Position numbers and translations under genes: made by a program
The notes under the pieces: model-generated
Databases searched by the model: none
Told to the model about the DNA's origin: nothing
What the model saw: only the letters and a program-made list of their open reading frames with translations
Assembly (NCBI GenBank): GCA_947561395.2
Contig: OX387183.1
Coordinates: 42,266,901 to 42,330,900, forward strand
Source of the DNA: Buxus sempervirens
Lineage: Eukaryota; Streptophyta; Magnoliopsida; Buxales; Buxaceae
Length of the DNA: 64,000 bases
Direction: 5' to 3'
In this document: one piece after another, positions 6,995 to 51,081 of the stretch
How the letters are laid out: each line of letters opens with the position of its first letter
How positions within the stretch are numbered: the first letter of the stretch is position 1

Positions 6995-6999
6995 TAATA

Positions 7000-29888: not shown

Positions 29889-30005
29889 TGTAGACACCCC
29901 AAATTGCACTGCCAAATGAGAAAATAATAAAAACATGTAATTAGAGCTTAAAACAGGTCAAAATTGCATAAAAATTGACAAAACAGGCTTTGCCCGTATT
30001 TCCTT

Positions 30006-30107
30006 CACGGGCCCATCGCGCCCGAAAATTATCTACGGTCAGGCGTGCCCGTGGAAACTATATGGTCACCATTGGACCGTAGTCCATTTACGGTCACTAA
30101 AGACACG
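30006..30107. promoter_or_regulatory. U3 palindromes, word TACGG(G/T)C...G(C/A)CCGTA
   Basis: Four units lie at 30006-30024, 30034-30053, 30061-30081 and 30088-30107, with arms around 7 bp and spacers of 6-7 bp. The base next to the spacer changes together on both sides: CACGGGC/GCCCG in the first unit, and GGTC/GACC in the third (a perfect TACGGTC/GACCGTA in the 3' LTR). They sit about 190-290 bp upstream of the TATA box. Confidence 0.75.
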
Positions 30108-30408
30108 TGCGAGTTTTGTCCTTCTCTCGATTTCCGAGCTTTATCTTTAGTCCAATATATCTTTAAATGAGCGAATTACGTATTTTATTCGCTGAAGCCA
30201 CCTTGGTTGGCTATGGATGGGCATTACCTCCAATTTTCACTCTATCCTGAGGATCAGGATATATCCTTCAGGACCAGTCTTGCCCCTGTGCTTGCCTATA
30301 AATAGAGGCTCTCTCCTCTAGCTAAGGGCCACGAAATTTTGAGTCCAAGGAATTCTAAGAAGCTCCAAGAGAAGAGAAAGAACTCTTGCTGCCTGCCTGC
30401 TCAATCCA

Positions 30409-30416
30409 GGTAAGTC
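30409..30416 (+). promoter_or_regulatory. Splice donor in the LTR leader
   Basis: CCAG|GTAAGT is a consensus 5' splice site about 105 bp downstream of the TATA box. A related LTR on the minus strand keeps AAG|GTAAGC at about 6090. Another (near 58020) has the first intron base mutated. A matching acceptor (TTTTGTATCCAG, 34165) lies just before gag. Splicing would remove PBS, leader palindromes and the 19-copy array from a gag mRNA. Confidence 0.55.
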
Positions 30417-31704
30417 CCCTATCCCTTTTTATTTTCTGTCTTCAATTCTAGAAGTAATAGGATCATTTCTATTGCTGTAGAATAAGGCCATATCTATTTT
30501 CGTATTCTTAAACTTGTCTCTAAGTACCTCAAGAGTCTTTCTAGTCGTAAAACGTGAAGAGAGAACTAGGGGAAAGGGGAACAGGTGGATCCCTAGAATA
30601 GAACCCCATATCTGTTTTTTTCTTCTCATAGAATAAGGCCTGTGATTGTGTTTGTGTAACCAAACCTATCTCTAAGTACCTCAAGAGTCTCTCTAGCCGT
30701 AAAACGTGAAGAGAGAACTAGGGGAAAAGAGAACAGGTGGATCCGTAGGGTAGACCCCCATGTGCTCTAATTTGTGAGATGTGGTGGCTTTGAATATCCT
30801 GATCATGTTTTAATTGTTTTTATGATGAATCTAAATGAATAACATGAATCTATGATGTTTATAGCATGAGATCCCCACTTTTTGCTAAAATTTGGATTTT
30901 TGCCACTTTTGCACCTACAACACTGTTTTCGTGATTTTTGTGATTTTAGGCTAGGATCTTGGATCTATCATGATCAATATGGTAGATCTAGATCCAGAAG
31001 CCTGAAAGTAAATTCTAGGGTTTCATGATATGGTTTTTAAATTGTTTTTCATTATTGAGAGAAGACCCTACGGTCTCAGTTCTCCCCTTTTGATGTTCTT
31101 CATCAACGTGGGTATTTTTTGTTTTGATTTTCAGATTTAATGTGATATTTGGGCTTTATCTATGTCCTGGACTATTCAAGTTCAATTTTGAAATATTTTA
31201 TAAAAATCATATTTTTCTAGATTTCTAAAATTTAGCTTGAAGCCAGATTTTTGGATTTTTCACTTTAAATTGATTTTATTCGATTTTATCTCAATTTTAT
31301 TTTGATCATGAAACCCTAGGAATGGTATGATCATATTTGAGAGTTCTGGATCAATCAAACTATTCATATGAAAAAACCATATATTTTTGTCTTTTTTGTG
31401 ATTTTTCATGAAATTTATAGCAAGCCTTTTTCCTTTATTTTAAACATGAACAAAACCTGGCAACCACCTTGTGTGGATGAATAGGGGTGCCTAACACCTT
31501 CCCCTGTTCATAACCTAATCCCCTTACCCATCTCTGGTTGTTTTTAAAGGAGGGTTATTTTTACCCTAAAATTGCCTTTTGTGCTTATTTAATATTTGGG
31601 TGTCCATTCACACCTAAATTGAATGGTGGCGACTCTTTGTTTTATTTAATCCCGTGTGATGATTAGGAAATCATTAAATTGATTTTTTTTCCATGTCTCA
31701 CAAT

Positions 31705-31722
31705 TGGCGACTCTGCTGGGGA
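31705..31722 (+). other. Primer binding site, tRNA-Arg type
   Basis: TGGCGACTCTGCTGGGGA starts 2 bases after the LTR. It is complementary to the 3' end of plant tRNA-Arg with about two mismatches. An Arg-type primer is usual in the Tat lineage. Confidence 0.75.
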
Positions 31723-32921
31723 CTTGTGGATTTGAGCCTTTTGGTGTTTTAGTTCATGTTTTTGATTTTTTGATTTGCTTGCTATTTTATGTTCTTAAGC
31801 ATGTTGGGTATGTTTTAAATCTGAATTATTGCTTAAGAATTCATGGGGGTAGAAACATGTTTAATTTTGATTTATAGGATTGTTTCTACAAACATGTGTA
31901 GGGGAGGTTCGTTTTGCTGAACCATGCTTATTTCTTGCTATATTTTTATGATAGCATGTTTTAATTTTCAGCATGATCTCCATGATGATTTTGGGTGTAT
32001 AACATGATCATATGTTTGCATGATAGATGATTTTTATGAGCATGTTTTAGGTGCTATAGGATTGCTTTATTTACTTGTTTATTTTAAATATGCTTTCCTA
32101 TTATGCCTTGGTTTGTTTATGCATGGCTGCGAAAAGAGTGGCAAGGGTTTGGGACGTTGTGAATGTAACTTATTTTTACAATGCACTGTGCACCTTTTAT
32201 TTTTACACAGCCTACCCTTAACCTATAGGAAGTTGAACCCAAATGTGTATAGCTTGGCGCAACGAGGTCGATACTTCAGGAAGCGAAAGTGAAAACATTC
32301 ACCTTAGAACTTTGAGCTAATGATGTGATGATAACGTGGATCTGGGATTCTGGTCATCACTAGGCTTGAGTGCTAAGTTGCCATTAAGCCAAAACCCAAA
32401 ACCCCTACGCTTGAAGGTGGAGTTACACGTTTTTGGCTAAAGTATACAATTACGTGGGAATATGGGTTTGTATGATTGAGGGAAGGCCGTATGCATGGCT
32501 TACAAACCAGGGCATAATGCGGATGACATATTGAAGGTAAACAAGGTAATCCTATTGTTTTGCATTATTTTCATAGGGGTGTCATGGTGCCCATTGGTTC
32601 GGGATAAAATTGGTCCCAAAATATGCATATTTTCTAAAATTGGTGCAACCCATAGGAAGAGTTTCTAACTCTGTTTAGAATCAATCCTACCCAATGTTCA
32701 TACAAGAGGCAACACAAGGGTACCAAATTCTAGAATATGGAGTCAATTCAGAGGGTACATGTGCCCTCCTAAGCATGTGTTTTAGCAAAAAGGCCAAGGT
32801 CCACTTTGGGACAGTTTAGAAGCCTTGCACTGGGTGAACCGTATGTTTGGATGAGCAATTAAAGTAATCAAACCATGTAAAAACTGGAAAAATATAACAG
32901 AGTTCCGTAAAACCGCATTTA

Positions 32922-33042
32922 GTACACGGGCTGGGCTTCCCCGTATTGGTTATACGGGCTAGGCTCGCCCGTGTTTTCCATATGGTCACGGCTTGCTCGT
33001 AATTTGAATACGGGCAGGGCTAGACCGTACTATGTATACGGT
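32922..33042. promoter_or_regulatory. Leader palindrome cluster, same word as LTR
   Basis: Units include ACACGGGC-tgggctt-CCCCGTAT, ATACGGGC-taggctc-GCCCGTGT and ATACGGGC-agggcta-GACCGTAC, plus a degenerate TATGGTC-acggctt-GCTCGTA. They use the same 7-bp arms as U3. No TATA box was recognised directly downstream, so a promoter role here is uncertain. Confidence 0.65.
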
Positions 33043-33187
33043 TTTCTCGGGATATTCAACTTTAATCAGTTTTTCCCCACTAAAATCTTCCTTTAACCTT
33101 TAAATAATGATAAAGGGAAACAAGTTTGAATAAAATGCTTCAAAAAAAATAATTGAAAAAAAAAATGTGAGAGAAAGGTTCCTTAGG

Positions 33188-33971
33188 CTTCTGAAAGCCT
33201 TTGAATTTCAGACTTTTTTAAAACTCTTGGGCTTCTAAAAGCCTTTGAATTTCAGACTTTTTCAAAACTCCTGGGCCTCTGAAAGCCTTTGAATCTTAGA
33301 TTTTTCAAAAAATCCTCGGGCCACTGAAAGCCTTTGAATTTCAGACTTTTTTTCAAAAAAAATCCTCGGGCCTCTGAAAGCCTTTGAATTTCAAAAAATC
33401 CTAGGGCTTCTGAAAGCCTTTGAATTTCAGATCCTTGGGCTTCTGAAAGCCTTTGAATTTCAGACCTTTTTCTTTTGGGCCTCTGAAAGCCTTTGAATTT
33501 CAGATCCTTGGGCTTCTGAAAGCCTTTGAATTTCAAACCTTTTTCTTTTGGGCCTCTGAAAGCCTTTGAATTTCAGATCTTTTGGGCCTCTGAAAGCCTT
33601 TGAATTTCAGACATTTTTCTTTTGGGCCTCTGAAAGCCTTTGAATTTCAGATCTTTGGGCCTCTGAAAGCCTTTGAATTTCAGACTTTTTTCTCAAAAAC
33701 TCTTTGGGCCTCTGAAAGCCTTTGAATTTCAGACTTTTTTCTCAAAAACTCTTTGGGCCTCTGAAAGCCTTTGAATTTCAGACTTTTATCAAAAATCCCC
33801 GGGCCTCTGAAAGCCTTTGAATTTCAGACCTTTTCTCAAAATATCCCTGGGCCTCTGAAAGCCTTTGAATTTCATACCTTTTCCAAAAACATCCCTGGGC
33901 CTCTGAAAGCCTTTGAATTTCAGACCTTTTTCAAAAACCCCCCGGGCCTCTGAAAGCCTTTGAATTTCAGA
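33188..33971. repeat. Interspersed array, 19 copies of TCTGAAAGCCTTTGAATTTC
   Basis: Nineteen copies of a core of about 23 bp, with arms CTGAAA and TTTCAG around GCCTTTGAA, are separated by T-rich spacers of varying length (unit spacing about 30-55 bp). The core is nearly invariant while spacers vary in length and sequence. Both strands have open frames through it because stops are rare in the repeat, but these are not genes. Confidence 0.9.
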
Positions 33972-34218
33972 TCTTTCTCTCTTTTGTGGGACCTGTTGGA
34001 AGCCCTAGAATATTCCAACAATTCAATTCAAAAAAAAAGAAAAGAAAAAAAAGCAAATAAAGAAAAAATCCAAACTCGTGTTCACCCAGCTTGCACGTAG
34101 GCATTCCTAAGCATGTGAATGAGATTAATTGGGCACTGATATTTTTTCCTTTATTTTGTATCCAGGTACTAATACACTTGCAATCATAGCTCCTGTAACC
34201 AGATCAAGAGCTCGTGCC

Positions 34219-36444
34219 ATGAATCCCATTGAAGATGAAGTTGATGCTCCTCATCCAGATGTTGTTCTACTCCAAGAACAAGTGGCAGGATTAGCCCGAA
34301 TGCTAGAGAACATACTGTCAGTATAGGCCCAACAAGTGCAGGCCCAACAAATGCAGGCCCAGAACCAGGCATCCACATCCAACCCTGCAACTCCACCCCC
34401 TGTCAATATTCCACCTCCAGTGCAACCAACTCCTGAACCCGTCTATGAACCCACCCCTGAACCTATACTGACCAGGGATGAGACAGCTGAGTCAAACAAG
34501 GCTAAGGAAAAGGAAAGGATAAGGGAAGAGGTTGAAAGAAAGTTCATGCATAAGCTAGAAATGATCCAAGATGAACTAAGGGAAGTCAAAGGGGTAAACA
34601 ACTTTGGAGGCACCAATTTTGAATACCTGTGCCTATACCCCAATGTTAACCTGCCGGCTAAGTTTAAGTGCCCAGACTTGGACAAGTATGATGGCACTGG
34701 TTGCCCTATGAGCCACCTAAAGTTATATTGCGGTGCCCTATGCCAGTTCGGGCAGGATGAGGGTATCTTGATCCAACTTTTCCAAAGGAGCCTGACCGGA
34801 ACCGCATTAAGATGGTTCGCCACTTTGGACCATGGAAAGATCAAAAGATGGAAGGACCTAGCCGATGCCTTCCTGGCTCAATACCGGTTCAATTCAGAGA
34901 TCGTGCCAGACAGGTACGACATCATGAGGATGAGCAAGGGAAGGGATGAGACTGTAAGGCAATATGCCAAGAGGTGGAGGGAGACGGCCTCCCAGGTCAG
35001 GCCACCCATGCTAGAACAGGAAATGATTTCTACTTTCATCAGCACTTTGGGTCAACCATTCTACAGCCACCTGGTGGGTCAGACCACCACTAATTTTGCT
35101 GCCTTGGTTCAAGTGGCTGACCGAATAGAAGACGGGATCAGGTCAGGTAAGATAATCGACCACTCTGCCATGGTTAGTCAGCAAGACCCTAATCTGAAGA
35201 AAGGAAGCGGGATAAAAAAGAATGGGAACAAGAAGGAGGGTGAGGTAAACATGGTACAGCCACCATCTGGCCCTAACAAGCCTATACAAATCAACATGCC
35301 AGCTCATTTTCCTACTCCACCTGCTCCATCTACCCCGGCCCCCATGAGGGTTAATGTTCCAACAACACCTTCAGACCAAAAAAGGGTTTTTACTAAGGAG
35401 GAAAAGGATGCCTATTTTACAGCAAGGAGAAATAGGGTTTTCACCCCTATTCCCATGACTCCTTCTCAGTTGCTGCCCACTTTATTGAAAGCAGGGTATG
35501 TCACCTTAAGAGAACCTAATCCGAATGCATCCAAGGGGAGAAATTTTGACCCTTCCACCACTTGTGATTACCATATGGGAGCACCTGGGCACCCTACAGA
35601 CAAGTGCTGGCCTTTGAAACATGCCATTCAGGATTTACTAGACCAGAATACCCTGTCTTTCAATACAGGGGCTCCCAATCCTCCAAGAACCGATATTGGA
35701 CAAAACCCACTGCCCCAGCATCACGGGGCAGGCCCATCTAATGTCATAGGAGTCATCTCTTCTGACAAAATAACCTTTGACCCATCTCAATTAATTGCTC
35801 CCATAGGGACAACGGTCAAAGTATATTTTGACAGGAGAAATGAAGACAAAGAAGTAAATGTGATTTCAAAGGGGAATGATAGTGCTGCAAAGAACATTAG
35901 CTCATCTTTGGACCGGGTCTCATCCCTCATGGCCCAGATGAACATCGCCAAGCCACCTTTGGTCATTAATTACAATCCATCCACTTTTACTCCACCCATT
36001 CAGTCAAAACCGCCATTGGTCATAAACTGTGACCCCCTTAGTGCATCAGTCACTTCTACAACCCCTCAATCAAAGCAACTTCCACCTCTGGTTATTAATG
36101 TTCCATTTACCCAGACTTCCGCATCCAAGTCCAAACTTCCTCCATTAGTGGTAAATGTCCCTAAGCCTTCCTACTCTGAATCGGCTGTACCATGGAACTA
36201 CAGTGAAGCTTTTACCACAACATGCCCTGCAGCTGAAAGCAAGGAAGAAGTAAACCTCATGATGAGGTCAGGAAAATGTATAGGGGTGGAAGAAAAACAA
36301 AAAGAGACAGAGAAAGAAAAGAAAGAAGAAAAAAAAAATAAAGGCAAGGCCAAGGTAGGGGAAGAGGCCCCTCAGGTAACTAACAGTGAGGCTGCTGACC
36401 TCATTAAGGTAATAAAAAAGAGTGAGTTCAATGTCATCGAGTAG
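34219..36444 (+). pseudogene. gag: gag polyprotein, two amber stops
   Basis: The start at ATG 34219 is the first after the inferred acceptor at 34165. Codon 36 is TAG (34324-34326), inside a Gln-rich stretch, and the frame then stays open to a second TAG at 36442-36444. The gag core occupies about 34610-35150 (KCPDLDKYDGTGCP, then ALRWFATLDHGKIKRWKDLA and YAKRWRETASQV). A zinc-knuckle-like CDYHMGAPGHPTDKC follows near 35562. A proline-rich linker and a lysine/glutamate-rich tail end the frame. Gag packages the RNA into virus-like particles. The stops truncate it unless read through. Confidence 0.9.
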
Positions 36445-38429
36445 TTGAACAAAGTCCCTGCCCAGATCTCAATTCTGGGATTATTGTTAAATTCTGAAAA
36501 ACATAGGGACTCCTTGTTAAGGATACTTCAAGGGGCACATGTGCCTAAAAATATTGAACCAGACCAACTAGGCCGGATGGTTGGTCAAATTTTATCCCAC
36601 AATGTGATAACTTTTTCTGAGACTGAAATCAGTCCAGCAGGGTACCATCATGTTGACCCATTACACATAGCTGTACTCAGTAAGGGTTGCATGATAGCCC
36701 GGGTCTTGATTGATAATGGGTCAGCCCTCAATGTCTGCCCGTTAGTAACCTTTGTTAAGCTCAATTTGGAGCGAAACAAAATAAAACAAAATGGAAGAAT
36801 CATAAGAGCATTTGACAGCTCTAAAACACACTCCCTGGGGAGGTTGAACTGCCGGTCACAATTGGACCGTATATTTTTAACATCACATTTGAGGTGATGG
36901 ATATACCTGCAGCTTTCAACCTACTCCTAGGAAGGCCGTGGATTCATACAGCTAGGGCCATACCATCTACCCTCCACCAAAGAGTCAAATATATTAGAGG
37001 GCAAAAGGTGATTACCGTCCTAGCCGAAAATTTGGTTCCCCCCATGTGGTCCCCTGATGTACCCTGTATTAACATGGAAATGACTACTGACAAGTTGACA
37101 TTTCACTCTTTTCAATTTGAAGCTGTGAATTATATACCTAGGGGGTATCAGGAAAAAGAAGGAAAATTGACCTGTGCTGAGAAAATGGTCAAGAATGTGC
37201 TAGAAAATTACCATTTTCACCCTGGAAAAGGTCTGGGGGTTAACCTACAAGGAAGGATAGAACCGGTACAGGTTAAGAAGATGGTTCGCACAGCAGGGTT
37301 AGGGTCCAAGCCAAGGAAATGGAGAAGACAGGGGCAGATAGAAACCATGAAATTCCCTCATATCAGGGAAACTTTTCCAAAGCTTTCTCACATGATTCAA
37401 CTGTCTCCTGCTGAGGATCAGTCCAAACCTCCATACTACAATGTCAACCCATTCCAGAAACCCAAACCCTCAACCGTACAACCATATGTTCCACCTCCAC
37501 CTCCACAAGCACCGGGTGGGCCTGGGCCACAGGCAGAACAGGAGCAGGATTTTTTAGAGGACATTGGAGCATTTTTTGCCATGACAGAAGGCAAGCAAGA
37601 AGAAGTAGCAGAGGAGCTACCCTTTATTGATTGGGCTGCAGTAAAAGTTCCATCTGGAACTGGCCTTACAGAAGAAACAGGCGATGCAACTCACCCAGTA
37701 TTGGTGATTTCAGATGCAGACCCTGAGCTTGAGGAGCAGGCTTGTATCCCTGCCCCAGATTCTTTTATTCTGAATAATTGGGAGGAAACTCCCCTTACTT
37801 TTGAAGCCACGTTTGTTTGGCAAACAGACATGGCTTCCAAAAAAAAAACTCCATTAGTGGAATGCCCTTTCCCTGAAGGTTTTAATGAGCCTTCGTCTTC
37901 AGGGAAAGATTTTGTAGAAGGCTCTCAAAAAACACAAAAAGATTTTTCAATTTTTTCTAGAAAAGATAAAGTTTTCAAAAAGGTCCAAACCATTTATGAA
38001 CCATATAAGCAAACGGAATTGGATCAGGATGAGTATTACTTCGACCTTGAGCTCGACTTTGACCTAATGGGGGTTGAAGAAGAAACCGAGGACGAAGAAG
38101 ACGACCCTCCAAAGGAAATCACATATCAATTGGAGCGTCATGAAAAGGGGGTCCAACCCAATATTGAAGAAACCATATCAATAAACCTAGGGACCGAAGA
38201 TGACCCAAAAATAGTGAAGATTGGGGTATGTCTATCTGAGGTACAGCGGGAAGAAATGATACGGTTCTTAGCTGACTATGAAGATGTATTTGCATGGTCG
38301 TATCGGGATATGCCTGGACTAGACACAGACATGGTTGTACATAGGCTACCAATTCTGCCAGATGCTAAGCCAGTTAAACAGAAACTGAGAAGGTTAAAAC
38401 CTGAATGGACATTGAAGGTTAAAACCTGA
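36445..38429 (+). pseudogene. pol: Aspartic protease and linker region of pol, frameshifted
   Basis: Continues in frame after the amber stop. The protease motif VLIDNGSALNVCP has its catalytic Asp codon at 36712. Near 36840 a single-base loss in a G-run shifts the frame: the first frame runs out at 36897 and the next opens at 36894 with DIPAAFNLLLGRPWIH. The relic at 1036-3272 lacks this shift, which locates it. The linker then runs to an acidic segment and the N-terminal edge of reverse transcriptase. It ends at 38429 because of a 25-bp tandem duplication. Confidence 0.88.
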
Positions 38430-38441
38430 ATGGACATTGAA
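38392..38441 (+). repeat. 25-bp tandem duplication at the start of reverse transcriptase
   Basis: Two identical head-to-tail copies of a unit beginning GGTTAAAACCTGAATGG. Because 25 is not a multiple of three, this breaks the pol frame. It is a recent slippage-type lesion, since the copies are identical. Confidence 0.95.
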
Positions 38442-40098
38442 GGTCAAAGATGAAGTGGTTAAACAATTCCAAGCCGGATTCTTAGCAGTCTCCACGTACC
38501 CTGAATGGCTTGCAAATATAGTGCCAGTACCAAAGAAGGATGGAAAGGTCAGAATGTGCGTAGATTACAGAGACTTGAATAAGGCAAGTCCAAAGGATGA
38601 TTTTCCACTTCCACATATTGACATCTTGGTGGACAACACTGCTGTACATAGTCTATTCTCATTCATGGACGGGTTTTCTGGATACAATCAAATTAAGATG
38701 GCTAAGGAAGACCAAGAGAAGACAGCCTTTATCACCCCTTGGGGTACCTTCCACTACACTATCATGCCATTTGGACTTAAGAACGCTGGGGCAACCTACC
38801 AGCGGGCCATGACAGCCTTATTCCATGATATGATCCATAAGGAGATGGAGGTTTATGTGGATGATATGATAGCCAAATCATGTGAAGAAGAAGACCACTT
38901 GATCAATTTGAAGAAGGTATTTGACCGGCTCAGGAAATACAGTCTAAGACTTAACCCTGCGAAATGTGTCTTTGGAGCTACATCAGGAAAATTGTTGGGC
39001 TTTATAATAAGCAAAAGGGGAATTGAGATTGACCCAGCCAAAGCAAAAGCAATCATTGAAATGCCATCACCCAAGACGGAGAAGGAAGTTCGTGGTTTTC
39101 TTGGAAGGATTCAGTACATAAGCCAGTTCATAGCACAGCTCACTGCTATCTGTGAACCAATTTTCAAACTTCTAAGAAAGAATAACCCGACAGTCTGGAA
39201 TGATGATTGCCAAGAAGCCTTTGACACAATAAAGGAGTATTTATTGAACCCACCTGTGCTAGTGCCACCAACTCCAAGGAGACCATTGATCTTATACTTG
39301 TCAGTTTTGGAGACATCAATGGGATGTGTTTTGGGACAGCATGACGATACAGGTAGAAAAGAAAGGGCGATTTACTACCTAAGCAAGAAGTTTACAGAAT
39401 ATGAAGCAAAGTATTCCCCCTTGGAAAAGACTTGTTGTGCATTAGTGTGGGTAACTCAGAGGCTGAGGCACTATTTCCTTAGTCATTCCACCTTATTGAT
39501 ATCTCGAATAGACCCTTTGAAGTATCTATTTGAGAAACCGGCTTTAACAGGCAGAACAGCAAAGTGGCAGTTATTACTCTCTGAATTTGACCTCACCTAT
39601 ATCACGCAGAAAGCCATTAAAGGTCAAGCCATAGCTGATCATTTAGTTGCACACCCTTTACCAGAATACCAACCCTTGAAGACCAACTTCCCTGATGAGG
39701 CAATCCTATTTGCTGAAGAAGAAGAAGGTGAAAGCTCATGGCAAATGTTTTTTGATGGGGCCGCCAATATGAATGGAAATGGAATAGGGGCTGTGTTGAT
39801 CAAGCCAGATGGGGCACACATCCCGATCGCAGTGAAGTTAAGGTTCCAATGCACGAACAATATAGCAGAGTATGAAGCATGCATAATTGGGTTGCAAGCT
39901 GCCTTAGACCATGAAGTAGAGGAACTTGACGTATATGGGGATTCGAGTTTTATCATCTTCCAAACAACTGGTGAATGGAAAACCAAGGATCACAAATTGA
40001 TCCCCTATCACCAGTATTTGGAAGAAATAAGCAATAAATTTACTCGAATTTCCTTCAATTATATGCCAAGGCCAAAAATCAGTTTGCGGATGCTCTAG
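38437..40098 (+). pseudogene. pol: Reverse transcriptase, RNase H and archaeal-type RNase H
   Basis: Reverse transcriptase spans about 38510-39100 (VPVPKKDGKVRMCVDYRDLN, FGLKNAGATYQRAM, and YVDD at 38854-38865). The gypsy RNase H follows (about 39280-39650). Its first segment reads LYLSVLETSMGCVLGQ, lacking the usual leading Asp. A second RNase H (about 39740-40090) has MFFDGAANMNGNGIGAVL (Asp at 39754), NNIAEYEAC and VYGDSS. This archaeal-type copy is the hallmark of the Tat lineage, where it appears to have taken over from the degenerate first one. A one-base loss near 40072 shifts the frame shortly before the end. Confidence 0.92.
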
Positions 40099-40103
40099 CA
40101 ACA

Positions 40104-41468
40104 TTGGCTTCAATGGTCAGTATGCCAGAAGGTGTTGATATTAGACCATTGGAACTTGAAGTCAGAGATGAACCAGCTTATTGCCTTGTTCTAGAAGAAA
40201 CCCCAGAAGAAGATGTACCATGGTTCCAAGACATTAAGAACTTCCTAAATGATCAAAGTTTGCCAGAAAATGTCACCTCTACAGAGAAAAGAACAATACA
40301 GAGGCTGGCAGGACAGTTCTTACTAAGTGGTGGTCAGTTGTACAAAAGATCACACAATGATAAACTACTCAGATGTATTGCAAAGACTGAGTCAGAAAGG
40401 ATAGTTGAAACGGTACATGGAGGAGTGTGTCGACCCCATATGAATGGGCATATGCTTGCCAAGAAGATTCTGCGATTGGGATATTACTGGTCGACTATGG
40501 AGCATGATTGCTATATACACGTTAAAAGGTGTCATTTATGCCAAGTGTACGCGGATAACAAGAATGCACCCCCAAGTGAATTACACAGTATGACATCTCC
40601 GTGGCCTTTTTCTATGTGGGGTATAGATGTCATTGGAATGATCTCTCCAAAGGCATCAAATGGACACAGGTTTATACTTGTAGCAATTGATTACTTCACC
40701 AAGTGGGTAGAGGCAGCTTCATATGCAAACATTACAAGTAGCTACGTTTTGAAATTCTTGAAGCACAATATCATTTGTCGCTACGGTTTGCCAAGTGCCA
40801 TAGTAACAGACAATGCTTCAAACCTTAAGAACAAAGACATGAGGAAGATGTGTGAACAATTTCAGATTACCCACCACAAGTCAGCTCCTTACAGACCAAA
40901 GATGAATGGGGCAGTGGAAGCAGCGAATAATAATATAAAGAAGATCATTCAGAAGATGGTAGTGAGTTTTAAAGATTGGCATGAAATGCTGCCACTTGCT
41001 CTGCATGCTTACAGAACCTCAATTCGAACTTCTACAGGGGCAACCCCGTACTCCTTAGTATATGGAATGGAAGCAGTTTTACCAGTGGAAGTGGAAATAC
41101 CTTCATTAAGAGTGCTAATGGAAGCAGAATTAGAAGAAGCTGAATGGATACAATCAAGACATGATCAACTCAATCTAATAGAGGAAAAGCGATTAAAAGC
41201 GCTTTGTCATGGCCAATTGTATCAGAAGAGAATGGCCAGGGCTTACAATAAGAAGGTAAAGCCCAGAACTTTCCAAGAAGGAAATTTAGTATTGAAAAAA
41301 ATTTTACCCTTTTTGGAAGATCCTCGTGGAAAGTTTAAACCAAATTGGGAAGGACCTTATGTGGTCAAGAAGATCCTATCAGGGGGTGCTCTCATCTTAA
41401 CAGAAATGGATGGGAAGGATTTTCCTGAGCCAATTAACTCTGATACAGTAAAGAGATATTTTCCATGA
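40104..41468 (+). pseudogene. pol: Integrase, intact frame but cut off from upstream pol
   Basis: Opens with the end of the second RNase H, then the H-H-C-C zinc domain (HGGVCRPHMNGH through CHLCQVY, about 40417-40550). The catalytic core has Asp in WGIDVIG (40626), Asp in VTDNAS (about 40809) and Glu in NGAVEAANN (about 40917). The C-terminal part has FQEGNLVLKK and NWEGPYVVKKIL, and the frame ends in VKRYFP. No chromodomain is present. The frame itself has no stop, so integrase is the best preserved domain, but it lacks its own start context. Confidence 0.92.
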
Positions 41469-42422
41469 ATAAATATTACTAGGAAATGATCTGAGGCCAT
41501 TTTTCCTTATATCCCAAAATTTGCATCCCTAGTCAAGCCAATTTGAGCTTGTTCGTCTTTTTTGTTAAACCTAAACTGGACTTATAGTCTTATACTGGGG
41601 CAAAGCCAATAAGGGCAAAGCCAATAGGAGCAAAAGGAAAAAAAATGAGAAAAAAAGAGAGAAAAGAAAAAAAAAGGGCAAATGAAAACCAAATACAAAG
41701 GAAGGGGAATGGGATCGAATTCACCATGACTGTAAGTCCAGTTGACCCATTTTTCATACTTAGAAAATTTTGAGCCTTTAATACCTTTCTTTCATAAACC
41801 GAGCTTAGCCTTTGTTTCGTCCTATTATTAAGACCTCGGTGATTTTAGTATATTCATTCAACTTTCAGAGTAAGATTGGTGATGACGGAATGTATAGGGC
41901 AACCCTAGTGAAAACTGTAATTGGCACTAGGGACAACAAGGGCAAAAAGAAAAAAAAAGAAGAGAATAGAAAAAAAAAAAAGAAAAAAAATCAAAGGTTG
42001 AGTTGATCATGTGGTCTAAATTTAATCAGCATGAGCACTGGAAACTAAGCAGATTAGCAGGGCCCATCATGAAGGTAAACCATTAGAGGATGATTCTAAA
42101 GGTCACGGGGTAGACAGATTTGGTCTCTCCCTATTGCTTGGACTACCCTTTTCATTATTCAACATGATTTTAATTCCTTTAATTATATGTGATTAAGTGT
42201 TTTGGATCAGCTTTAAAAAAAAAAAAAAACTATACTTTGGCCAGTGATGAGAAATCAAATACTTTTTCATAAAACTTCTGTTTTTATAAGCATCTGAGAA
42301 TTCTAAGGCCAATAATATAAAACCTATTTTTGAATTAAATCTATTATCTTTCCACTAATGTAGTTTGTTTTTGTATAAGAGTATGAAAAAAAAATGAATG
42401 AAAAAAAAAGAGATAAAAGAAC
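41469..42422. other. Spacer between integrase and antisense genes
   Basis: Purine-rich (AAAAAGAGAG-type runs around 41635-41685 and 41945-41995), with a short direct repeat GGGCAAAGCCAATA near 41600. It contains the point where sense and antisense transcription units converge. No gene was recognised. Confidence 0.5.
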
Positions 42423-44272
42423 CTAATCCCTACTCCCTAACTGCTCCTCAAGCTCCCTAATCCTAGCTGCCTGAGTTGCAATGACTCCAGAAGCACCCTC
42501 TGCATCAGGATCACTCAAAAAGGAGATGACCTCATCTGAAAAAGAAAGCTTGATCTTCAACGCCCTAAGGTCGGCCAAGGAATCCTGATACTTCTTCCGC
42601 ATCACTCGGACTTCAAAGCGACGAGCCTGCCTTTGTTCTTCAAGCTTCTTCTCCATGGCAATGTGGCCAGACTTCTGCTCTTCAAGCTTTCTCTCCAGAA
42701 CAAGGACTTTTATCCTAAGTTCTTGAGCCTCCCGTACCCATATTTGTTGAAGTCGCTTATGGGTTGCCCTTTCTGACTCCAGAATGTCCTCATAAGTAGG
42801 AGGAAGAACCACAGGAGGATCTTCTGGTACTGGGGCATGACTCTGCACCTGCTCTTTGATCCAGAATTGATAATCCTTCACATGGGACTCTGAAAAGACA
42901 GGACCCTGCAGAAAACGGACGTAGGACCACTCTTTCATTAATTGAGCAGTTAGCCCCATGGAGGCTGGTGTAAGTGGCCCTAAAAGCTTCTCATAGCCAG
43001 TAGGGATCATAATCCCCTGGATCGCTCTAAACTGCCGAAGAACCCTCAAAGGAAGTTAGAGAACAGCAGATTTCAAGCCTGCTAGGACCAGAAAGTTTTT
43101 ATCTCTAAAGCTGATCACTGTCTCTGGAGTGGGCTGATAAGTGCCAAGCCATCTCACTTGATCATCCTGGAGAGTACCCAAGAAAGTGAACCAGCCTTGC
43201 TTGCCGCCTTGGATGTTAGGACATCCCCTATTGCTCATCAAAACAGGAACTTTCAATCTTGGAAAGAAGCGGTGAGTTATTTCTTCAACCTGGCTAAGAT
43301 GGTCAAGCAACCAAAGCTGCAGAAAGAGGGAATATTTCAAATTATTTCCAAAAAGAAAAAAAAAGAAAAAAGAAAAAAGAAAGAAAAAAAAAATAAAGAA
43401 AAAAAAAGAGAAGGAAAAGAAAAAAAAAAGAGAGGAAGAAAAAGAAAAAGAGAAGAAGAAGAAAGAAAAAAAAAAGAAATAAAAAGAGAGAAAAAATAAT
43501 TATTATTATTTCTTTTTACCTGTAGGATAGGGGCGCAGGCAAGGAAGCGCTTCTTCTTCCTGAAATAGCAGTCAGTAAGGGCCTGGTATATCTCTGCTAG
43601 GATCATAGGGGATAATCTCTCACGTTCCCTAACCTGGCAGATAACTGAGATGAGAGCCAAGTCAACCTGGTCATCACCCCGTGGAAAAAGCAGCTAATTG
43701 ACCACTACCAGGGTCAATGCATTAAACCTAGCGTCCTTGTCTTCACTCCTCAGAAGTTTTTCAGTCAAAAAGGTCTTAGACAAGGTCAATAGTGCATCAT
43801 AATTTCCTAGGTCCTTCTTCCCTATACCCAAGAAAGTGGAAGCCTCTTTTTTATAACTAAGCTTTAGGGGTGGGTTTACAAATTTTTCAGAAAATCTTAG
43901 GCCAAGGATGGTTTCAATTTCTTCTATGGTAGGAGTCATCTCTTTATCATCAAACCGAAAAAGATTTAGTTCAGGAACCCAGTGTCCAATCAAAGCTTCA
44001 ATAATTTCCCACTTAAAGGGAATTTTAGGGTGTAGAATATGCCCTAAGTGGATGGAACCCCAGCTAATCTCCTCATCAAGGGTCATGGAGTTAACCCGCC
44101 TGTCATAGAAAGAGTCCACAATGTTGTACCTGGTGAGATTAGGAGGTTTTGATCTAACAGGTTGTCTTGCAGGAGGAGATTCAACGGCAGGAGAAAGCGG
44201 CGTAGGGGAAGCCATGGAAGCGCCAAAGAAGCCAAGGAAAGCGAGAAAAGACGTGCTCAGGGAGTTTTCCAA
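42423..44272 (-). pseudogene. Antisense gene A: DUF7745-like protein with C-terminal coiled coil, two exons
   Basis: Exon 1 is 44272-43520, ending CTACAG|GTAAAA. The intron is 43519-43317 and contains a long purine/pyrimidine tract. Exon 2 is 43316-42423 after TTTCTGCAG. The joint is phase 0 and codes about 548 residues. The N-terminal half (GHWVPELNLFRFDDKEMTPT, then LALISVICQVRERERLSP, then LWLLDHL) follows the pattern of plant DUF7745 proteins. The last 120 residues are charged and coiled-coil-like. Two in-frame stops disable it: TAG at 43694-43696 and TAA at 43056-43058. The function is unknown. It lies inside the retrotransposon and opposes gag-pol. Confidence 0.75.
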
Positions 44273-44306
44273 CTAATAAAAGTGTCACAATGACGTTCCC
44301 TATGAG

Positions 44307-44454
44307 TTTATATAGAAAAAATCGTAAGGCAGTAAATTCCGTAATTATACTATGGGCAAAGCTCGCGCGTATAGGAACTACGGACACCCTTGACCGTGAA
44401 AACTTCACGGGCAGAGTGCGCCCGTAGTAACTTTACGGGCACGGCTTGCTCGTA
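44307..44454 (-). promoter_or_regulatory. Promoter of antisense gene A: TATA box plus four palindromes
   Basis: On the minus strand CTATATAAA (44307-44315) lies 35 bp upstream of the ATG at 44272. Immediately upstream of it are palindromes at 44351-44372, 44379-44399, 44405-44426 and 44433-44454. They use the LTR word, best seen in TTCACGGGC-agagtgc-GCCCGTAG. This is the same arrangement as the LTR U3. Confidence 0.7.
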
Positions 44455-44681
44455 GGTTAAATACGGTTCCTTCCGAAAAATGCAAAAAATGGGGCATTTT
44501 TAATTTCTTTGTTTTCCTAAGCTTCACCTGTTCCTGTTTTAACATTCATCATGTAATAAAAAACTGAAAAGAAAGAAGAAAAGTACACAAATGAACACAA
44601 ATCAAACTTCTTTTATATATATGAATGAGTACATCAGTTTGTCAAAATACAAATATACATAAGAGAATCCTAATCTACTGT

Positions 44682-47543
44682 CTACGTAGGTCCACCCCTA
44701 CGGCCACGGCCTCGTCCTCTGCCTCGACCACGGCCTGAAGATCGCCTGTGCTCAAAGACATGCCGCACAACATTGCGGGCTGTGCTACGCGTCATCCTGC
44801 TCAAAACAGACTGAATATCATGCCACATATATAAAGGCACAAGGCCAGCAGTGGGATGATCAGGAGGGACATACCCTGAAGTATCTACATCAGAATCAGT
44901 ACGGGAAGAATCCGTTGACGTATCAACAGCAGCATGCGTCTCCTCGGCATCCTCCATAGCAGGACTAGCAGGAGCAGAGGTCCCAGGTACATCAGCATCA
45001 GGACCGGGCTCTACAGGATCAGCTGTAGCCTCCTCCATCACCACGGCCTCCACGGTAGGCTTTACCACAGCGGCGTCCATAGCCAAGTCCGTATCAACAT
45101 CAGCAGATGCATCAGGAGCAGTCTCAGCTACTGGGGCAGACTCTGGCACATCCTCAGTAGCAGGTACAATATCAGCCTCGACCTCGGGCTCTGCTGCAGG
45201 AACCTCTACTGGACTAGGAGACGTCACGAACTCCACCCGTGCCACAGAAAATACCTCATCCCGAAAATGCATGGGCATGGGTGAAGCAGGTGAAGAAGGG
45301 CCGGCTGTGTCCTCCTGAAACTAAGAGAAGGAATTTCAGTCAGAACAAGACAAACAAATGCAAGAGCAGGAATAGAAATAAAAGAAGAAATTAACCTGAG
45401 TATAAGATGGACCCGCCTGGTCCTGTGCATCAGATGGACCGTCCTGGCCCTGAGCTCTGGCTAGCTGCCCCCGGAGGTCTGAAATGGTGATATAGAGGGC
45501 ATCCCGCTCGACGATCGCAGCATCTCGCTGGCGCTCTAGATCAGCATATCGAGACCGGATCTCTGCCAACTGAGCCTCCTGAAATAGAAAAGAAAAAAGT
45601 TAGAAAAATGCTAAGTTCAGATGAAATGAAAATAGAAAGGTGAAAAGGAAGAAGGCATACCGTGGTGTCATAGGCCCTAATCACTACCCCTCCAATCTCA
45701 GTAACTCCGCCATGGACAGGCATAGGTGGCATGAGGCACCCAACAGAAGCTCGCCTGAACCAGGCATCATAGTCACCCTCCTCCAATAATGTCTCTTCCT
45801 CAGTCCAATCTAGGAACTTGGCGGGATCAACAGGCATAGGAGGGTAGGAAGGAGTAGTATCTGGCGGGATGGCAGGAATCCGCGGCTCTCCCACATGCTG
45901 AAAGAAGAAGCGCTCGCTGCAGTACCAGATGCTGCCCAGCTAACCAATAAAGAACTGGTATCTCTGTCGTCTTTGGTCAGGGACAAATGCATCATCTCTG
46001 GCTGCCTGCAGGGCCAGCACCTCATGAATGTCCTCCATCCTGGGGACAAATAGCTGACAAACAGAACAGGACATCAGATATGTGATTCAGAAAGAAAAGA
46101 AAAGAAGGAAGCAGAGGAATTAAAGAAGATTACCTCAGACCGGTACAACCTGTCCAAGTGGGCCCGCGCGGACCTGGGACGACTCTTTTCAGAGTCGTGC
46201 TCTACATGACACCATCTACGTGCCATGGGATATGTCTCCTCAGACATCTAAAGGTAGGACGGAAATAGGGTATATAAACTCTAGCAAAAAACTGCAAAAA
46301 GAAGAAAAGAGTTAGAGGAATAGAAAAGGAGAGATAAGAAAAAGAGAAAGAGAAAGAAAGAGAAGAGAATAAGACATTTCACCTGCAGAAAAGGCCAGAA
46401 AAATCTGCATCCAACTCCAGCCCCTCTGGAAGTAGAGAGGCCGCTCACTGATCGGCGAAGGCCGGCCAAAATAGTACCAAAAATGAGCGGGCCCCATGCA
46501 TACCTCCTCGCCCGCTGAAGATCTCCCAGTAAGCTCAGGAAATGAGGACTGACTGAGGTCGTGTCCTCTAAGAAGAAGCAGGATCCCATCATATACAGAA
46601 AAAGAAACCGGAAGGCAAATGGGAAAACATGATCACCGGCAGCAAGCTGGCCAAACTGCCTCCTCCTTAAAATCTCTCTCAACCATGTCAAAGACAATCT
46701 CGCTCTCCCCCGATCCCAGGCCTTTGGAGGCAGCACAATATATCCAAGATAACCAGCAATCTCATCAGTCTCTGGCATCGCCATCTCAGGAATAACATCA
46801 CCGATCATCCTAATCCCGGTGATGAGCGTGAAGTCAGAAGGCCGGATCCCAATCTCAATATCTGGGAAGTGAAAGCTCAAAGTCTCCGGGAAGAATCTCT
46901 CGAGCAGTGCAGCAATGAGGGCCCGATCCAGGCGTACGTCCGGAATAGTAATAAACATGCCAAATTCATATAAGCCTAACTCCCGACGGTAGGCCGAACT
47001 ACAAGCTCCCAAAAATCTAATGAAGCTAGCCCAGCTCCCTCTATAGTGGGACATAGCAAACTCCAAAGGGATATCCGCCCTAATACACGCTGAGGGATGA
47101 GTCCTCAAGCCATGCAAAAGATCGATATCCCTAATCTGGGCAGCCACCTCCTCAGGGATCTCAACCCTGGTCCTGGCCTCATCTCTGCCACGGCCCCCTC
47201 TGCGGCCTCCTCTATGGCCCTCATCATGGCCTCCATCTCTGCCGCCAACTCGACGCCTGCTACGGCTCCGATCTCTGCCCGAAGCCTCAACTGCCGGCTA
47301 AAGGAACAATTGGAAAGAAGAAAGGATCAAGGGGATGTTTTTATGAAAGAATGTTAAATTCAAAAAGTTAGAGTATACCTCTGGGGTCGCCTCACGCGAA
47401 TCCCCAGAAGGAAGATCAGGGACATCTGAATCCGAATCCCTCTCGGCCCTCGAAGACGAGGCCACATCAGCAGGATCACGCCTAACTCTTGAAGAGGAAG
47501 GCTCATCTGCAGGATCCCTAGAAGCTGATCTAAGGCGGGCCAT
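44682..47543 (-). pseudogene. Antisense gene B: plant mobile domain (aminotransferase-like) protein, six coding exons
   Basis: Exons read from splice sites are 47543-47379, 47297-46383, 46247-46134, 46053-45661, 45578-45396 and 45320-44682, all phase 0, giving about 802 residues. Exon 2 starts with an Arg/Gly-rich segment and then the plant mobile domain (SFHFPDIEIGIRPSDFTLIT, then AFRFLFLYMMGSCFF). Exon 5 is a short coiled coil (LERQRDAAIVERDAL). Exon 6 is acidic and alanine-rich and ends in an RGRGRGRGRG tail. One TAG at 45940-45942 interrupts exon 4. Plant mobile domains occur in both transposons and host proteins such as MAIN/MAIL1. Its role in the element is unknown. Confidence 0.78.
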
Positions 47544-48519
47544 CTACGGTTCAAATCAGGGAGATGATTAATTATTCATTTAAATTTTTTATTTGCTTGA
47601 TTATTCATTCTAACAAAGTTTAATTGATTTGCAGGAAAATGAAAATTGGGGAATGAAAGAAAGTGCTTCAGAAACTCCTGACCAAAATCAGAAGTCTACT
47701 AAGGAGTTTATTTTGAGAAATTTCATTGTTACCTGTCTTGGTTGTGATAAAAAATTTATAGGAAGTTTAGGCTTCCTGTATATTCTCTTTATAAGAAAAA
47801 GAAAAATACATGTGTATTAAGGTGTTAAGATCTTAATTTCCTCTTTTGGATTTTTTTTAAAGAGACCTAACCATCTAAATTTACTTGGTTTCAGGATGGA
47901 AGGTCAGGCCTACTTGTGTGAATACTAGCAAGGTAGGAGAAATGCAAAATCGGAAATCTAGGATGGAGTGTTCAACCTCAGCAAGGGCTCTACTCGAACT
48001 AGTGTGTTCAAAACAAAAAAAATAAAATAAAATAGGCAAAGCATGAAGGTCAAGTATGCAAAAGCAGAATAGAATCAAGGTTCACACATACAAATGGAAA
48101 ATTTAAAAGTACATTGGAGTTGTCACAAATCAGATCATCATATGTTCAACACCAGCTAATGATCAGATATAGCAATCCAGAGTCAGCATCTCATTAGGCA
48201 AAACAGAAAATTTTGGGGGCAATTCACTGGACTTCAAGAAGTCACAAAGGGAAATAAACAAGATTAGGCTGTATGAAATCAATTTCGGCCAAAATAAGAG
48301 AACTAAAACAAAGACAGCAGAATTCAAGCATTCAAAAGAAATCACAGCTACCAAATGAGACATTCAAGCAATATACCATGAGCATTTGGGAATTTTCATA
48401 AGCAATGCACATTACGGATGGAGGGTCCAATAATTTTTAAAACTTGGTTCGATCAGGAGAAAAATTAAAGACGTACCTGAATGGAAACTAGGCAAGGAAA
48501 AATTGAGGCTTGGTCTTAC
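47544..48519 (-). other. Probable 5'-UTR intron of antisense gene B
   Basis: On the minus strand a donor CGG|GTAAGACC lies at about 48519, and an acceptor CCGTAG lies directly before the ATG at 47543. The roughly 975 bp between them are AT-rich without coding features. This model puts the start codon at the first base of the second exon. Only RNA data can confirm it. Confidence 0.45.
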
Positions 48520-48800
48520 CCGAATTTCCAGAATAAGAGAAGTCGTTCACGGTCGATTACTATTTCAGGTGGTCACGAATGAAAAAAGATGTTGCTAGAA
48601 GAGTCGGTGTCAACAATGAAGTCACCGGAGTACAGTGAGAATCGCCGGAGAAGAATAGTAGTCGCCGGAAAATGAGGAGCTCGTCTGAGATGAGGTCGGA
48701 CTGTTGGAGAAGAAGAAGCAGGGACCGGAGAGAAGAATACGGGCAGAAGAGGTTTAGGGCAAAATGCGAGCAGAGAAGGAAAAGTCGCGGTCACGAGGTT
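48520..48800 (-). other. Untranslated leader exon of antisense gene B
   Basis: CT-rich on the minus strand with repeated TTCTCCGGCGA-type motifs, matching the relic at 853-1002. A 73-codon frame (48573-48794) is in the right direction but lacks domain features and is more likely leader. Confidence 0.45.
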
Positions 48801-48829
48801 AAGAAGAGGGTAAAATCCGTAAAATCAGT

Positions 48830-48905
48830 ACGGGCATCAGACGCCCGTGAAAGCAATACGGTCTCGTTCGCCCATGAACAACCTACGGGCAGCATCAGCC
48901 CGTAA
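48830..48905 (-). promoter_or_regulatory. Palindrome cluster upstream of antisense gene B
   Basis: The units are TACGGGC-atcagac-GCCCGTG (48830-48850), TACGGTC-tcgttc-GCCCATG (about 48858-48877) and TACGGGC-agcatca-GCCCGTA (48885-48905). They lie just upstream of GACCGCGAC, the sequence that follows the TATA box in the left element's homologous promoter. Here no clear TATA box remains. Confidence 0.65.
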
Positions 48906-49255
48906 GCCAAATACAGGCGAAGCCAAAAACAACATATTTTTATTATTTTCTCACAATTTTCAAAAGATTAATGTCCATATTAGTTGTAAGTTGCAAGGAT
49001 TGCCACCTTACCCACGTTTGTTTAAAATTTTTTTCTCAAATCTCACTTCATAGCCCACAAGTTCTCAGTGAGAGGAGAGAGGAGGATTTGGCCCTTAAGC
49101 TGAGGGACTTCTTAGCAAATCTTCCACAATCAATTCTTTTTTTCAAAAATCATCCATTTAATCCTTGCAAAGTGCAATTGATTATACAAAAATCTTAGAA
49201 AGTGCAATTGGTGGGTCTTTTTGCTCTCTGCTTGTAATTGGTTCCAATTACCAGC
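48906..49255. other. Spacer between antisense promoter and PPT
   Basis: AT-rich, with the short repeats GAAAGTGCAATTG / GTGCAATTGG near 49170-49212. No gene. Confidence 0.5.
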
Positions 49256-49268
49256 AAAGAGGGGCAGC
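49256..49268 (+). other. Polypurine tract of the Tat element
   Basis: AAAGAGGGGCAGC directly precedes the 3' LTR start at 49269. It is the expected plus-strand primer site. Confidence 0.85.
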
Positions 49269-51081
49269 TGTAGACACCCCAAATTGCACTGCCAAATGAG
49301 AAAATAATAAAAACATGTAATTAGAGCTTAAAACAGGTCAAAAATGCATAAAAATTGACAAAACAGGCTTTGCCCGTATTTCCTTCACGGGCCCGTCGCG
49401 CCCGAAAATTATCTACGGTCAGGCGCGCCCGTGGAAACTATACGGTCACCATTGGACCGTAGTGCATTTATGGTCACTAAAGACACGTGCGAGTTTTGTC
49501 CTTCTCTCGATTTCCGAGCTTTATCTTTAGTCCAATATATCTTTAAATGAGCGAATTACGTATTTTATTCGCTAAAGCCACCTTGGTTGGCTATGGATGG
49601 GCATTACCTCCAATTTTCACTCTATCCTGAGGATCAAGATATATACTTCAGGACCAGTCTTGCCCCTGTGCTTGCCTATAAATAGAGGCTCTCTCCTCTA
49701 GCTAAGGGCCATGAAATTTTGAGTCCAAGGAATTCTAAGAAGCTCCAAGAGAAGAGAAGGAACTCCTACTGCCTGCCTGCTCAATCCAGGTAAGTCCCCT
49801 ATCCCTTTTTATTTTCTGTCTTCAATTCTAGAAGTAATAGGATCATCTCTATTGCTGTAGAATAAGGCCATATCTATTTTCGTATTCTTAAACTTGTCTC
49901 TAAGTACCTCAAGAGTCTCTCTAGCCGTAAAACGTGAAGAGAGAACTAGGGGAAAGGGGAACAGGTAGATCCCTAGAATAGAACCCCATATCTGTTTTTT
50001 TCTTTTCATAGAATAAGGCCTGTGATTGTGTTTGTGTAACCAAACCTATCTCTAAGTACCTCAAGAGTCTCTCTAGCCGTAAAACGTGAAGAGAGAACTA
50101 GGAGAAAAGAGAACAGGTGGATCCGTAGGGTAGACCCCCATGTGCTCTAATTTGTGAGATGTGGTGGCTTTGAATATCCTGATCATGTTTTAATTGTTTT
50201 TATGATGAATCTGAATGAATAACATGAATCTATAATGTTTATAGCATGAGATCCCCACTTTTTGCTAAAATTTGGATTTTTGCCACTTTTGCACCTACAG
50301 CACTGTTTTCGTGATTTTTGTGATTTTAGGCTAGGATCTTGGATCTATCATGATCAATATGGTAGATCTAGATCCAGAAGCCTGAAAGTAAATTCTAGGG
50401 TTTCATGATATGGTTTTTAAATTGTTTTCCATTATTGAGAGAAGACCCTACGGTCTCAGTTCTCCCCTTTTGATGTTCTTCATCAACGTGGGTATTTTTG
50501 GTTTTGATTTTCAGATTTAATGTGAAATTTGGGCTTTATCTATGTCCTGGACTATTCAAGTTCAATTTTGAAATATTTTATAAAAATCATATTTTTCTAG
50601 ATTTCTAGAATTTAGCTTGAAGCCAGATTTTTGGATTTTTCACTTTAAATTGATTTTATTCGATTTTATCTCAATTTTATTTTGATCATGAAACCCTAGG
50701 AATGGTATGATCATATTTGAGATTTCTGATCAATCAGACTATTCATATGAAAAAACCATATATTTTTGTCTTTTTTGTGATTTTTCATGAATTTTATAGC
50801 AAGCCTTTTTCCTTTATTTTAAACATGAACAAAACCTGGCAACCACCTTGTGTGGATGAATAGGGGTGCCTAACACCTTCCCCTATTCATAACCTAATCC
50901 CCTTACCCATCTCTGGTTGTTTTTAAAGGAGGGTTATTTTTACCCTAAAATTGCCTTTTGTGCTTATTTAATATTTGGGTGTCCATTCACACCTAAATTG
51001 AATGGTAGCGACTCTTTGTTTTATTTAATCCCGTGTGATGATTAGGAAATCATTAAATTGATTTTTTTTCCATGTCTCACA
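49269..51081 (+). repeat. 3' LTR of the Tat element
   Basis: 1,813 bp, TGTAGACACCCC to CATGTCTCACA, about 98.3 percent identical to the 5' LTR by hand comparison, followed by GGTTC. It keeps the TATA box (about 49677-49685), the CAG|GTAAGT donor (about 49789) and the palindromes at about 49386-49487. Confidence 0.95.

Follow-up and report, generated by a model that had tools for sequence, protein, structure and literature searches.

In the 64-kb stretch of the Buxus sempervirens genome analysed here (C3:42266901-42330900, hereafter the window), a long terminal repeat (LTR) retrotransposon, probably of the Tat/Ogre type, carries five arrays of the 7-bp half-site TACGGGC, located in the U3 region of both LTRs, in the leader and upstream of two antisense genes (genes A and B), and these arrays very probably constitute a DNA-binding regulatory platform. 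The geometry of the arrays, their place near the TATA boxes of the LTRs and of gene A, the conservation of the half-sites in U3 and the spread over at least two LTR families can be regarded as established or nearly so. The protein that reads them may be encoded by the element itself, in the form of proteins with a plant mobile domain (PMD), and this possibility is weighed below against a host factor and against other explanations.

Structure of the arrays

Each array is an unbroken series of half-sites whose orientation alternates strictly and whose starts are 14 bp apart, and inward dyads (TACGGGC-N7-GCCCGTA) alternate with outward dyads (GCCCGTA-N7-TACGGGC) at a period of 28 bp (Table 1; array spans were defined by chaining half-sites). 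As both kinds of dyad follow each other without a break, the arrays are a lattice and not the separate palindromes of the original prediction, of which the dyads themselves are real. One spacer in each of the U3, gene A and gene B arrays measures 6 bp, and it is always the fourth, which suggests common descent of these arrays or exchange between them. The half-site that follows this spacer begins with C in all three.

The 43 half-sites of one U3, the leader, gene A, gene B and a solo LTR read T 35/C 8, A 42, C 38, G 41, G 40, G 29/T 11 and C 38. The information content is 0.85-1.84 bits at these seven positions and 0.03-0.65 bits at the seven on either side. The arms had been described as constant and the spacers as varying; the spacers do vary, but the arms are conserved rather than constant, and only one inward dyad (48884-48904) and one outward dyad (44420-44440) in the element match letter for letter. 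Spacer identity between arrays of the element is 24-46%, mostly no better than in permuted pairs. Over six arrays, A+T makes up 71 of 144 bases in the inner spacers and 139 of 182 in the outer ones (p=5e-7), indicating a difference between the two kinds of dyad. The observed/expected ratio of CpG is 1.17-1.53 in the five arrays of the family, and 0.20-0.37 in the rest of the 5' LTR, the leader and the solo LTR. In both dyad types the CGG and CCG triplets stand 11 bp apart, which is the spacing of fungal Gal4-type zinc-cluster sites; no such factor is known to us in plants. A NAC-type palindrome, with YACG cores 7 bp apart, seems unlikely, as neither the TGCGG variant described below nor the word at positions 5 and 7 fits it.

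Table 1. Coordinates of the retrotransposon, the arrays and associated features in the window
Feature	Position	Strand	Evidence
LTR retrotransposon, Tat/Ogre-type (putative)	29889..51081	+	LTR identity, flanking target site duplication, domains
U3 lattice, 5' LTR, 8 half-sites	29992..30095	.	word-free scan, half-site chaining
TATA box CTATAAATA, 5' LTR, 201 bp past array	30296..30304	+	TATA scan
Leader lattice, 9 half-sites	32925..33043	.	word-free scan, half-site chaining, rigid chains
Antisense gene A region, DUF7745/PMD-like, in pieces, in-frame stop near 43694	42426..44272	-	domain matches
TATA box (CTATATAA), gene A, 22 bp from array	44308..44315	-	TATA scan
Lattice upstream of antisense gene A, 10 half-sites	44337..44468	.	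word-free scan, half-site chaining
Antisense gene B region, in pieces; plant mobile domain at 46284-47297	44685..47543	-	PF10536, 1.5e-15
Lattice upstream of antisense gene B, 8 half-sites	48815..48918	.	word-free scan, half-site chaining
U3 lattice, 3' LTR, 8 half-sites	49372..49475	.	word-free scan, half-site chaining
TATA box, 3' LTR, 201 bp past array	49676..49684	+	TATA scan
Solo LTR, same family, 82% identical, target site duplication CTTAC	56723..58532	-	LTR comparison, flanks
U3 lattice, solo LTR, 8 half-sites, first six letter-perfect	58325..58429	.	dyad scan, half-site chaining
U3 lattice, third LTR (~70% identical), word TGCGG(A/G/T)C, 10 half-sites	8017..8149	.	word-free scan, chaining, rigid chains
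TATA box, third LTR, 202 bp from array	7807..7815	-	TATA scan

All five places at which the word had been noticed in the element proved real. Dyads with at most two mismatches number 35 in the whole window, compared with 0-2 in each of 20 Markov shuffles. In addition, a scan that assumed no letters and looked for alternating 7-mers at 14-bp steps, scored out of 35, reached 27 at exactly seven places in the 64 kb, namely the five arrays of the element, the U3 of the solo LTR and the U3 of a third, more distant LTR; at this threshold alone, 100 shuffled windows yield 41 false clusters. Rigid chains of 8-10 half-sites in the leader, the solo LTR and the third LTR beat all 60 shuffles. The U3, gene A and gene B arrays did not exceed all 60, because the 6-bp spacer breaks the rigid register, and their support is the word-based dyad scan and the genome-wide data. 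Steps of 22 and 11 bp also score in the word-free scan and were taken for ordinary repeats. The gag-pol region is without a lattice (best score 25), in line with the original prediction, in which the word had been noticed nowhere else in the element.

The array of the third LTR retains the geometry and the place but has a changed word: word position 2, which is A in 42 of the 43 half-sites above, is G in 10 of 10 there.

Genome-wide occurrence and a second LTR family

In the 676.5-Mb assembly, TACGGGC-N6/7-GCCCGTA occurs as 7,890 exact dyads, whereas the reversed control gives 0 and simple arithmetic at equal base frequencies leads one to expect about 5. When gaps of 0-30 were allowed, 7,962 dyads were obtained (control, 121), 99.1% of them with a gap of 6-7, the other 29 gap lengths adding 72. 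Together with the shuffles and the rigid chains, these dyad and gap counts rule out a chance origin of the arrays. They also show that the word is no private mark of this element, being common outside it. The original prediction had named an equal abundance of the word inside gag-pol or outside such elements as the result that would speak against it, and the genome-wide scan went half that way; yet gag-pol is lattice-free, and all 20 dyad loci analysed hold LTR sequence of either the window family or a second one.

These loci, taken as 10-kb stretches, came from the first-listed dyads (about 30 clusters, C1 0-9.6 Mb) and are a non-random sample. LTR sequence of the window family was present in nine of them (L007, L010, L014, L015, L016, L017, L022, L024 and L025), and the second LTR family in the other 11 (L006, L008, L009, L011, L012, L013, L018, L019, L020, L021 and L023), two of which, L011 and L018, hold a window-family LTR fragment elsewhere in the same stretch. 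The LTR of the window element gave no blastn match to that of the second family. Of the exact half-sites in the 20 stretches, 149 of 154 have a lattice neighbour; neighbour counts per variant of the word were not used, since one-mismatch variants overlap. Among 11 stretches of 3 kb chosen independently of the word, a single one (L026) had a lattice, and this lay beside second-family sequence.

In the second family, the array ends 13 bp (10/11) or 14 bp (1/11) before CTATAAATA, and these proximal arrays comprise 4, 6 or 8 half-sites, that is, steps of 28-bp dyad units. A second array falls between -257 and -150 in 10 of the 11 loci; the third, at +766 to +933, numbers 8 half-sites in 10 of 11. 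These chains were drawn without a shuffle control, and L009 has a weak third array (6 half-sites, score 6). The sequence TGGCGACTC, the start of the primer-site sequence of the window element, follows at +1534 to +1680 in all 11 loci. L012 and L021 have homology to gag downstream, and L019 has it upstream; homology to gene A or B is present in L014 and L025, both of the window family, and in L006 beside the second-family LTR. In this last locus (376-1667) the gene A (DUF7745)-like homology is on the sense strand downstream of the LTR, as if a gene of this type were placed ahead of gag and not antisense after pol. The sequence upstream of gene B also recurs in L016 and L022. A lattice of 6 half-sites reading TGCGGTC/TGCGGTT was observed at L012:1193-1269, in what remains of an LTR that resembles the second family, so that the G dialect also exists outside the third LTR of the window.

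Arrays and TATA boxes

The distance from array to TATA box is nearly invariant in the four LTRs of the window (201, 201, 201 and 202 bp, the solo LTR included), and the gene A array is 22 bp from TATATAA on the minus strand. No match adjoins the leader and gene B arrays among the TATA patterns scanned, and the proposed link of the module to promoters is supported for U3 and gene A and is hypothetical for the other two. The proposed coordination of sense and antisense transcription through the module is likewise hypothetical. Among 12 U3 copies, a simple end-finder gave 199-200 bp to the TATA box in 7; its outliers were 187 bp in L024_4868, 214 bp in the 3' LTR, where the last half-site has two mismatches, and 122 bp in L024_1140, caused by a stray word, while L007 and L010 lack an exact CTATAAATA. 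The U3 at L015:1559-2008 has both the array end and the TATA box 28 bp further along, with a distance of 200 bp kept between them, and its array seems to be one dyad unit longer.

Conservation of arms, spacers and flanks

The 12 U3 copies comprised the three of the window and nine others, from seven loci, with an alignment covering 75% or more, a rule that left out L014, L017 and the third LTR in L024. Mean column identity was 0.873 in the arms (56 columns), 0.764 in the flanks (317) and 0.589 in the spacers (48), with p values of 5e-9 for arms and spacers, 0.004 for arms and flanks and 6e-6 for spacers and flanks, which are guides only, as the copies are related. In U3, the arms are kept and the spacers change faster than the flanks. 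The 5' LTR and the solo LTR agree at 45 of 56 arm positions, 23 of 48 spacer positions and 211 of 307 positions of the U3 flanks, with one gap, and the difference between arms and flanks in this pair is non-significant (p=0.11). The gene A array, compared with a single copy in L025, gave 0.943 in arms, 0.906 in flanks and 0.774 in spacers, and the gene B array, again against a single copy in L025, 0.946, 0.922 and 0.646. The predicted layout of sites for a dimeric protein that recognises DNA is supported by this pattern of conserved arms and unconserved spacers.

If the palindromes acted as hairpins, either in RNA or in extruded DNA, for example as a packaging signal or a source of small RNAs, the arrays should fold well, and the folds of all six do surpass those of 200 shuffled versions of each array (z -3.9 to -7.5), as indeed those of any dyad array must. 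However, neighbouring arms show no mutual agreement beyond chance (p=0.65 and 0.29), and no complementarity of spacers was found about any array centre, results of limited power given the few sequences, but those to be expected of independent DNA half-sites. The U3, second-family and gene A arrays, moreover, all lie upstream of a TATA box. On the tests of arm agreement and spacer complementarity, an RNA hairpin was rejected as the main function, and we regard the hairpin explanation in general as improbable. Small RNAs have reportedly been studied in relation to the palindromes of Sireviruses.

Between the leader lattice and gag, at 33190-33970, there is a satellite of 16 dyads of the form TCTGAAA-GCCTTTGAA-TTTCA, whose 9-bp spacer is identical in 16 of 16, and which could represent RNA hairpins or sites of another protein. 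It also serves as an internal control of what slippage looks like, and bears on the view that the arrays are a short palindromic repeat spread by slippage and gene conversion without any function. Array lengths that differ by 28-bp units, the 6-bp spacer at the same place in the U3, gene A and gene B arrays and the fairly similar spacers of the second family would agree with this view, but not the fixed distance to the TATA box, nor U3 arms that are more conserved, and spacers that are less conserved, than their flanks. On the contrast with the satellite and this pattern of conservation, plain slippage was rejected, and a neutral repeat of any kind is very improbable.

The reader of the arrays

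We propose that a sequence-specific DNA-binding protein would occupy the arrays as repeated dimers, with a 7-bp half-site every 14 bp, and would bind cooperatively over 4-10 half-sites near promoters. Since the arrays precede two PMD-family genes and the word differs between families, the reader may be one or both of the PMD-family proteins encoded by the element, which would bind U3 and the leader as well as the promoters of their own genes, and would switch or protect these promoters; the change from TACGG to TGCGG would then mark a changed specificity of the protein. We assign a probability of roughly 0.43 to a platform read in this way.

The strongest competitor, which we consider somewhat less probable, is an enhancer read by a host factor: tandem sites of a host transcription factor would have been captured by the elements, as has been proposed for boxes in other plant LTRs, and the antisense genes would share the enhancer. 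Against it stand the alterations of the word in the third LTR and the L012 remnant, for which one host factor gives no cause, and the presence of arrays at the antisense PMD-type genes themselves. In its favour, Tnt1 BII boxes are bound by defence-induced host factors (PMC3316501), and several observations count against our main proposal of a platform read by PMD-family proteins. The two LTR families have one word in common but no similarity that could be detected, and a host factor would explain this just as well; similar CGG-CCG palindromes occur in the LTRs of Sireviruses (Ty1/copia), where the available parts of the paper mention no PMD genes and the authors liken the boxes to sites of host stress factors (PMC2829016). 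Only one of the 11 second-family loci (10 kb each) has homology to gene A, and a non-exhaustive search returned no publication in which PMD proteins bind DNA in a sequence-specific manner. The richness in CpG is partly a product of the word itself, and the decayed third LTR retains CG in only 2 of 10 half-sites. The leader pair (window and L015) has arms of 0.937, flanks of 0.985 and spacers of 0.946, and in the second family the spacers (0.846) exceed the flanks (0.787), the arms being highest at 0.957; such likeness of spacers is as expected if arrays are renewed by duplication.

As for the action of PMD-family readers, anti-silencing, as opposed to plain activation or repression, appears rather unlikely on present evidence. 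A fuller scenario of word-specific anti-silencing or trans-activation is also rather unlikely: Ogre-type PMD proteins would bind the lattices at all promoters of their own family, the TACGG and TGCGG dialects would co-evolve with the protein, and the spacers would be free, or even under pressure, to diverge, which would deprive host small RNAs of their target and leave the protein sites intact.

The retrotransposon and its surroundings

The element is bounded by LTRs of 1.81 kb each, mutually 98.2% identical, and by the target site duplication GGTTC. It encodes gag, reverse transcriptase, RNase H, a second RNase H-type domain (RVT_3) ahead of integrase, and a G-patch; RVT_3 occupies residues 446-553, after reverse transcriptase and RNase H, and integrase is in the next frame. 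The G-patch domain is in the pol region, at 36825-38429 (8.9e-06). The order of reverse transcriptase, RNase H and integrase is that of Ty3/gypsy, which places the element outside the Ty1/copia Sireviruses. A second RNase H between RNase H and integrase distinguishes Tat/Ogre elements, and a PMD in an extra open reading frame is present in 57% of Ogre elements, according to the accessible portion of that study (PMC6317226); by its predicted domains, the window element has both features and is assigned to this type. As far as the sections at hand go, PMD clades A1 and A2 are encoded by Gypsy elements only (PMC5418596), and Transposase_28 is the hallmark of Retand (PMC11963269); Transposase_28 (PF04195) had no match at E<=1 in the 8 pieces searched.

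Two pieces of gene A match DUF7745, one with 30.5 bits, above the cut-off, and the other with 25.0 bits, below it, and PMD matches in gene A are below the cut-off only. A protein search with one piece each of genes A and B returned no match in a database that seemingly holds few or no plants, and none was found by a sequence search of PDB; no paper naming DUF7745 was found in the open-licence literature. Neither by pattern nor by protein was a relative found in a viral contig database; the lone contig matching the primer-site word is GC-rich, densely coding and without a lattice, and was judged by eye to be phage. The third LTR relative of the window is on the opposite strand and 70-72% identical in LTR pieces, and its LTR is split downstream of the TATA box by repeats at 6179-7739 (three copy families, one also at 24580).

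Comparison with known systems

Element-encoded proteins that act on an element's own DNA are known from DNA transposons. In maize, TnpA of the CACTA transposon En/Spm recognises numerous short sites, direct as well as inverted, close to its own promoter, and the word and the spacing of these sites are unlike the present lattice. VANC proteins bind short repeated motifs in the non-coding DNA of their own VANDAL elements and remove silencing marks (PMC5735166, PMC10398659). The likeness lies in family-specific short motif repeats in the element's own non-coding regions, in a reader encoded by the element (here a candidate only) and in the fast turnover of the repeats. However, VANDAL is a MULE DNA transposon and not an LTR retrotransposon; the VANC motif YAGTATTAY lacks CpG and is not described as inverted in the parts consulted, unlike the CpG-bearing alternating half-sites described here; and VANC binding was demonstrated experimentally, whereas PMD binding is a prediction. 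By analogy, the present system could work like VANC/VANDAL without being a member of it. If PMD binding holds true, sequence-specific self-regulation encoded by the element itself would extend from DNA transposons to LTR retrotransposons.

Among Tat elements, antisense or extra open reading frames are familiar, a regulatory role has been proposed for the TRP28 proteins of Retand, and PMD is typical of Ogre, as here; the portions consulted of these papers describe no cis-motif common to LTR, leader and antisense promoters (PMC11963269, PMC6317226, PMC5418596). Among open-licence papers, none could be recognised by title or abstract as an earlier description of such a motif in Ogre/Tat elements, and in this literature we did not find the occurrence in Tat/Ogre, the lattice with variable spacers, the leader and antisense arrays, the dialects or the genome-wide count. 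The arrays reduce the question of what antisense and PMD genes do in giant plant retrotransposons to a simple binding test.

The cis-architecture is nevertheless of a known kind, given the boxes of Sireviruses (Bousios et al., 2010; PMC2829016). These are palindromes, 12 of 13 with a CGG-CCG core, present in 8 to 32 copies per element, rich in CpG and located upstream of the LTR TATA box and, where present, of the env-like gene, with a function that is only proposed. The resemblance extends to the extra clusters upstream of an additional gene and to a word that differs between elements, and the Sirevirus pattern of at least eight CGG-CCG copies upstream of the LTR TATA box recurs here, with 8 half-sites per U3 and the TATA box at 201 bp. 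The differences are that the carrier is Ty1/copia there and Ty3/gypsy here, that the extra gene is a sense env-like gene there, whereas here antisense PMD-family genes and a leader array are found, and that the Sirevirus boxes, in the sections consulted, are separate and short with a consensus that includes the middle, in contrast to a continuous 14-bp lattice with variable spacers. The CGG-CCG boxes of Sireviruses thus gain a counterpart in the other LTR superfamily, and a common reader or a convergent strategy can now be sought.

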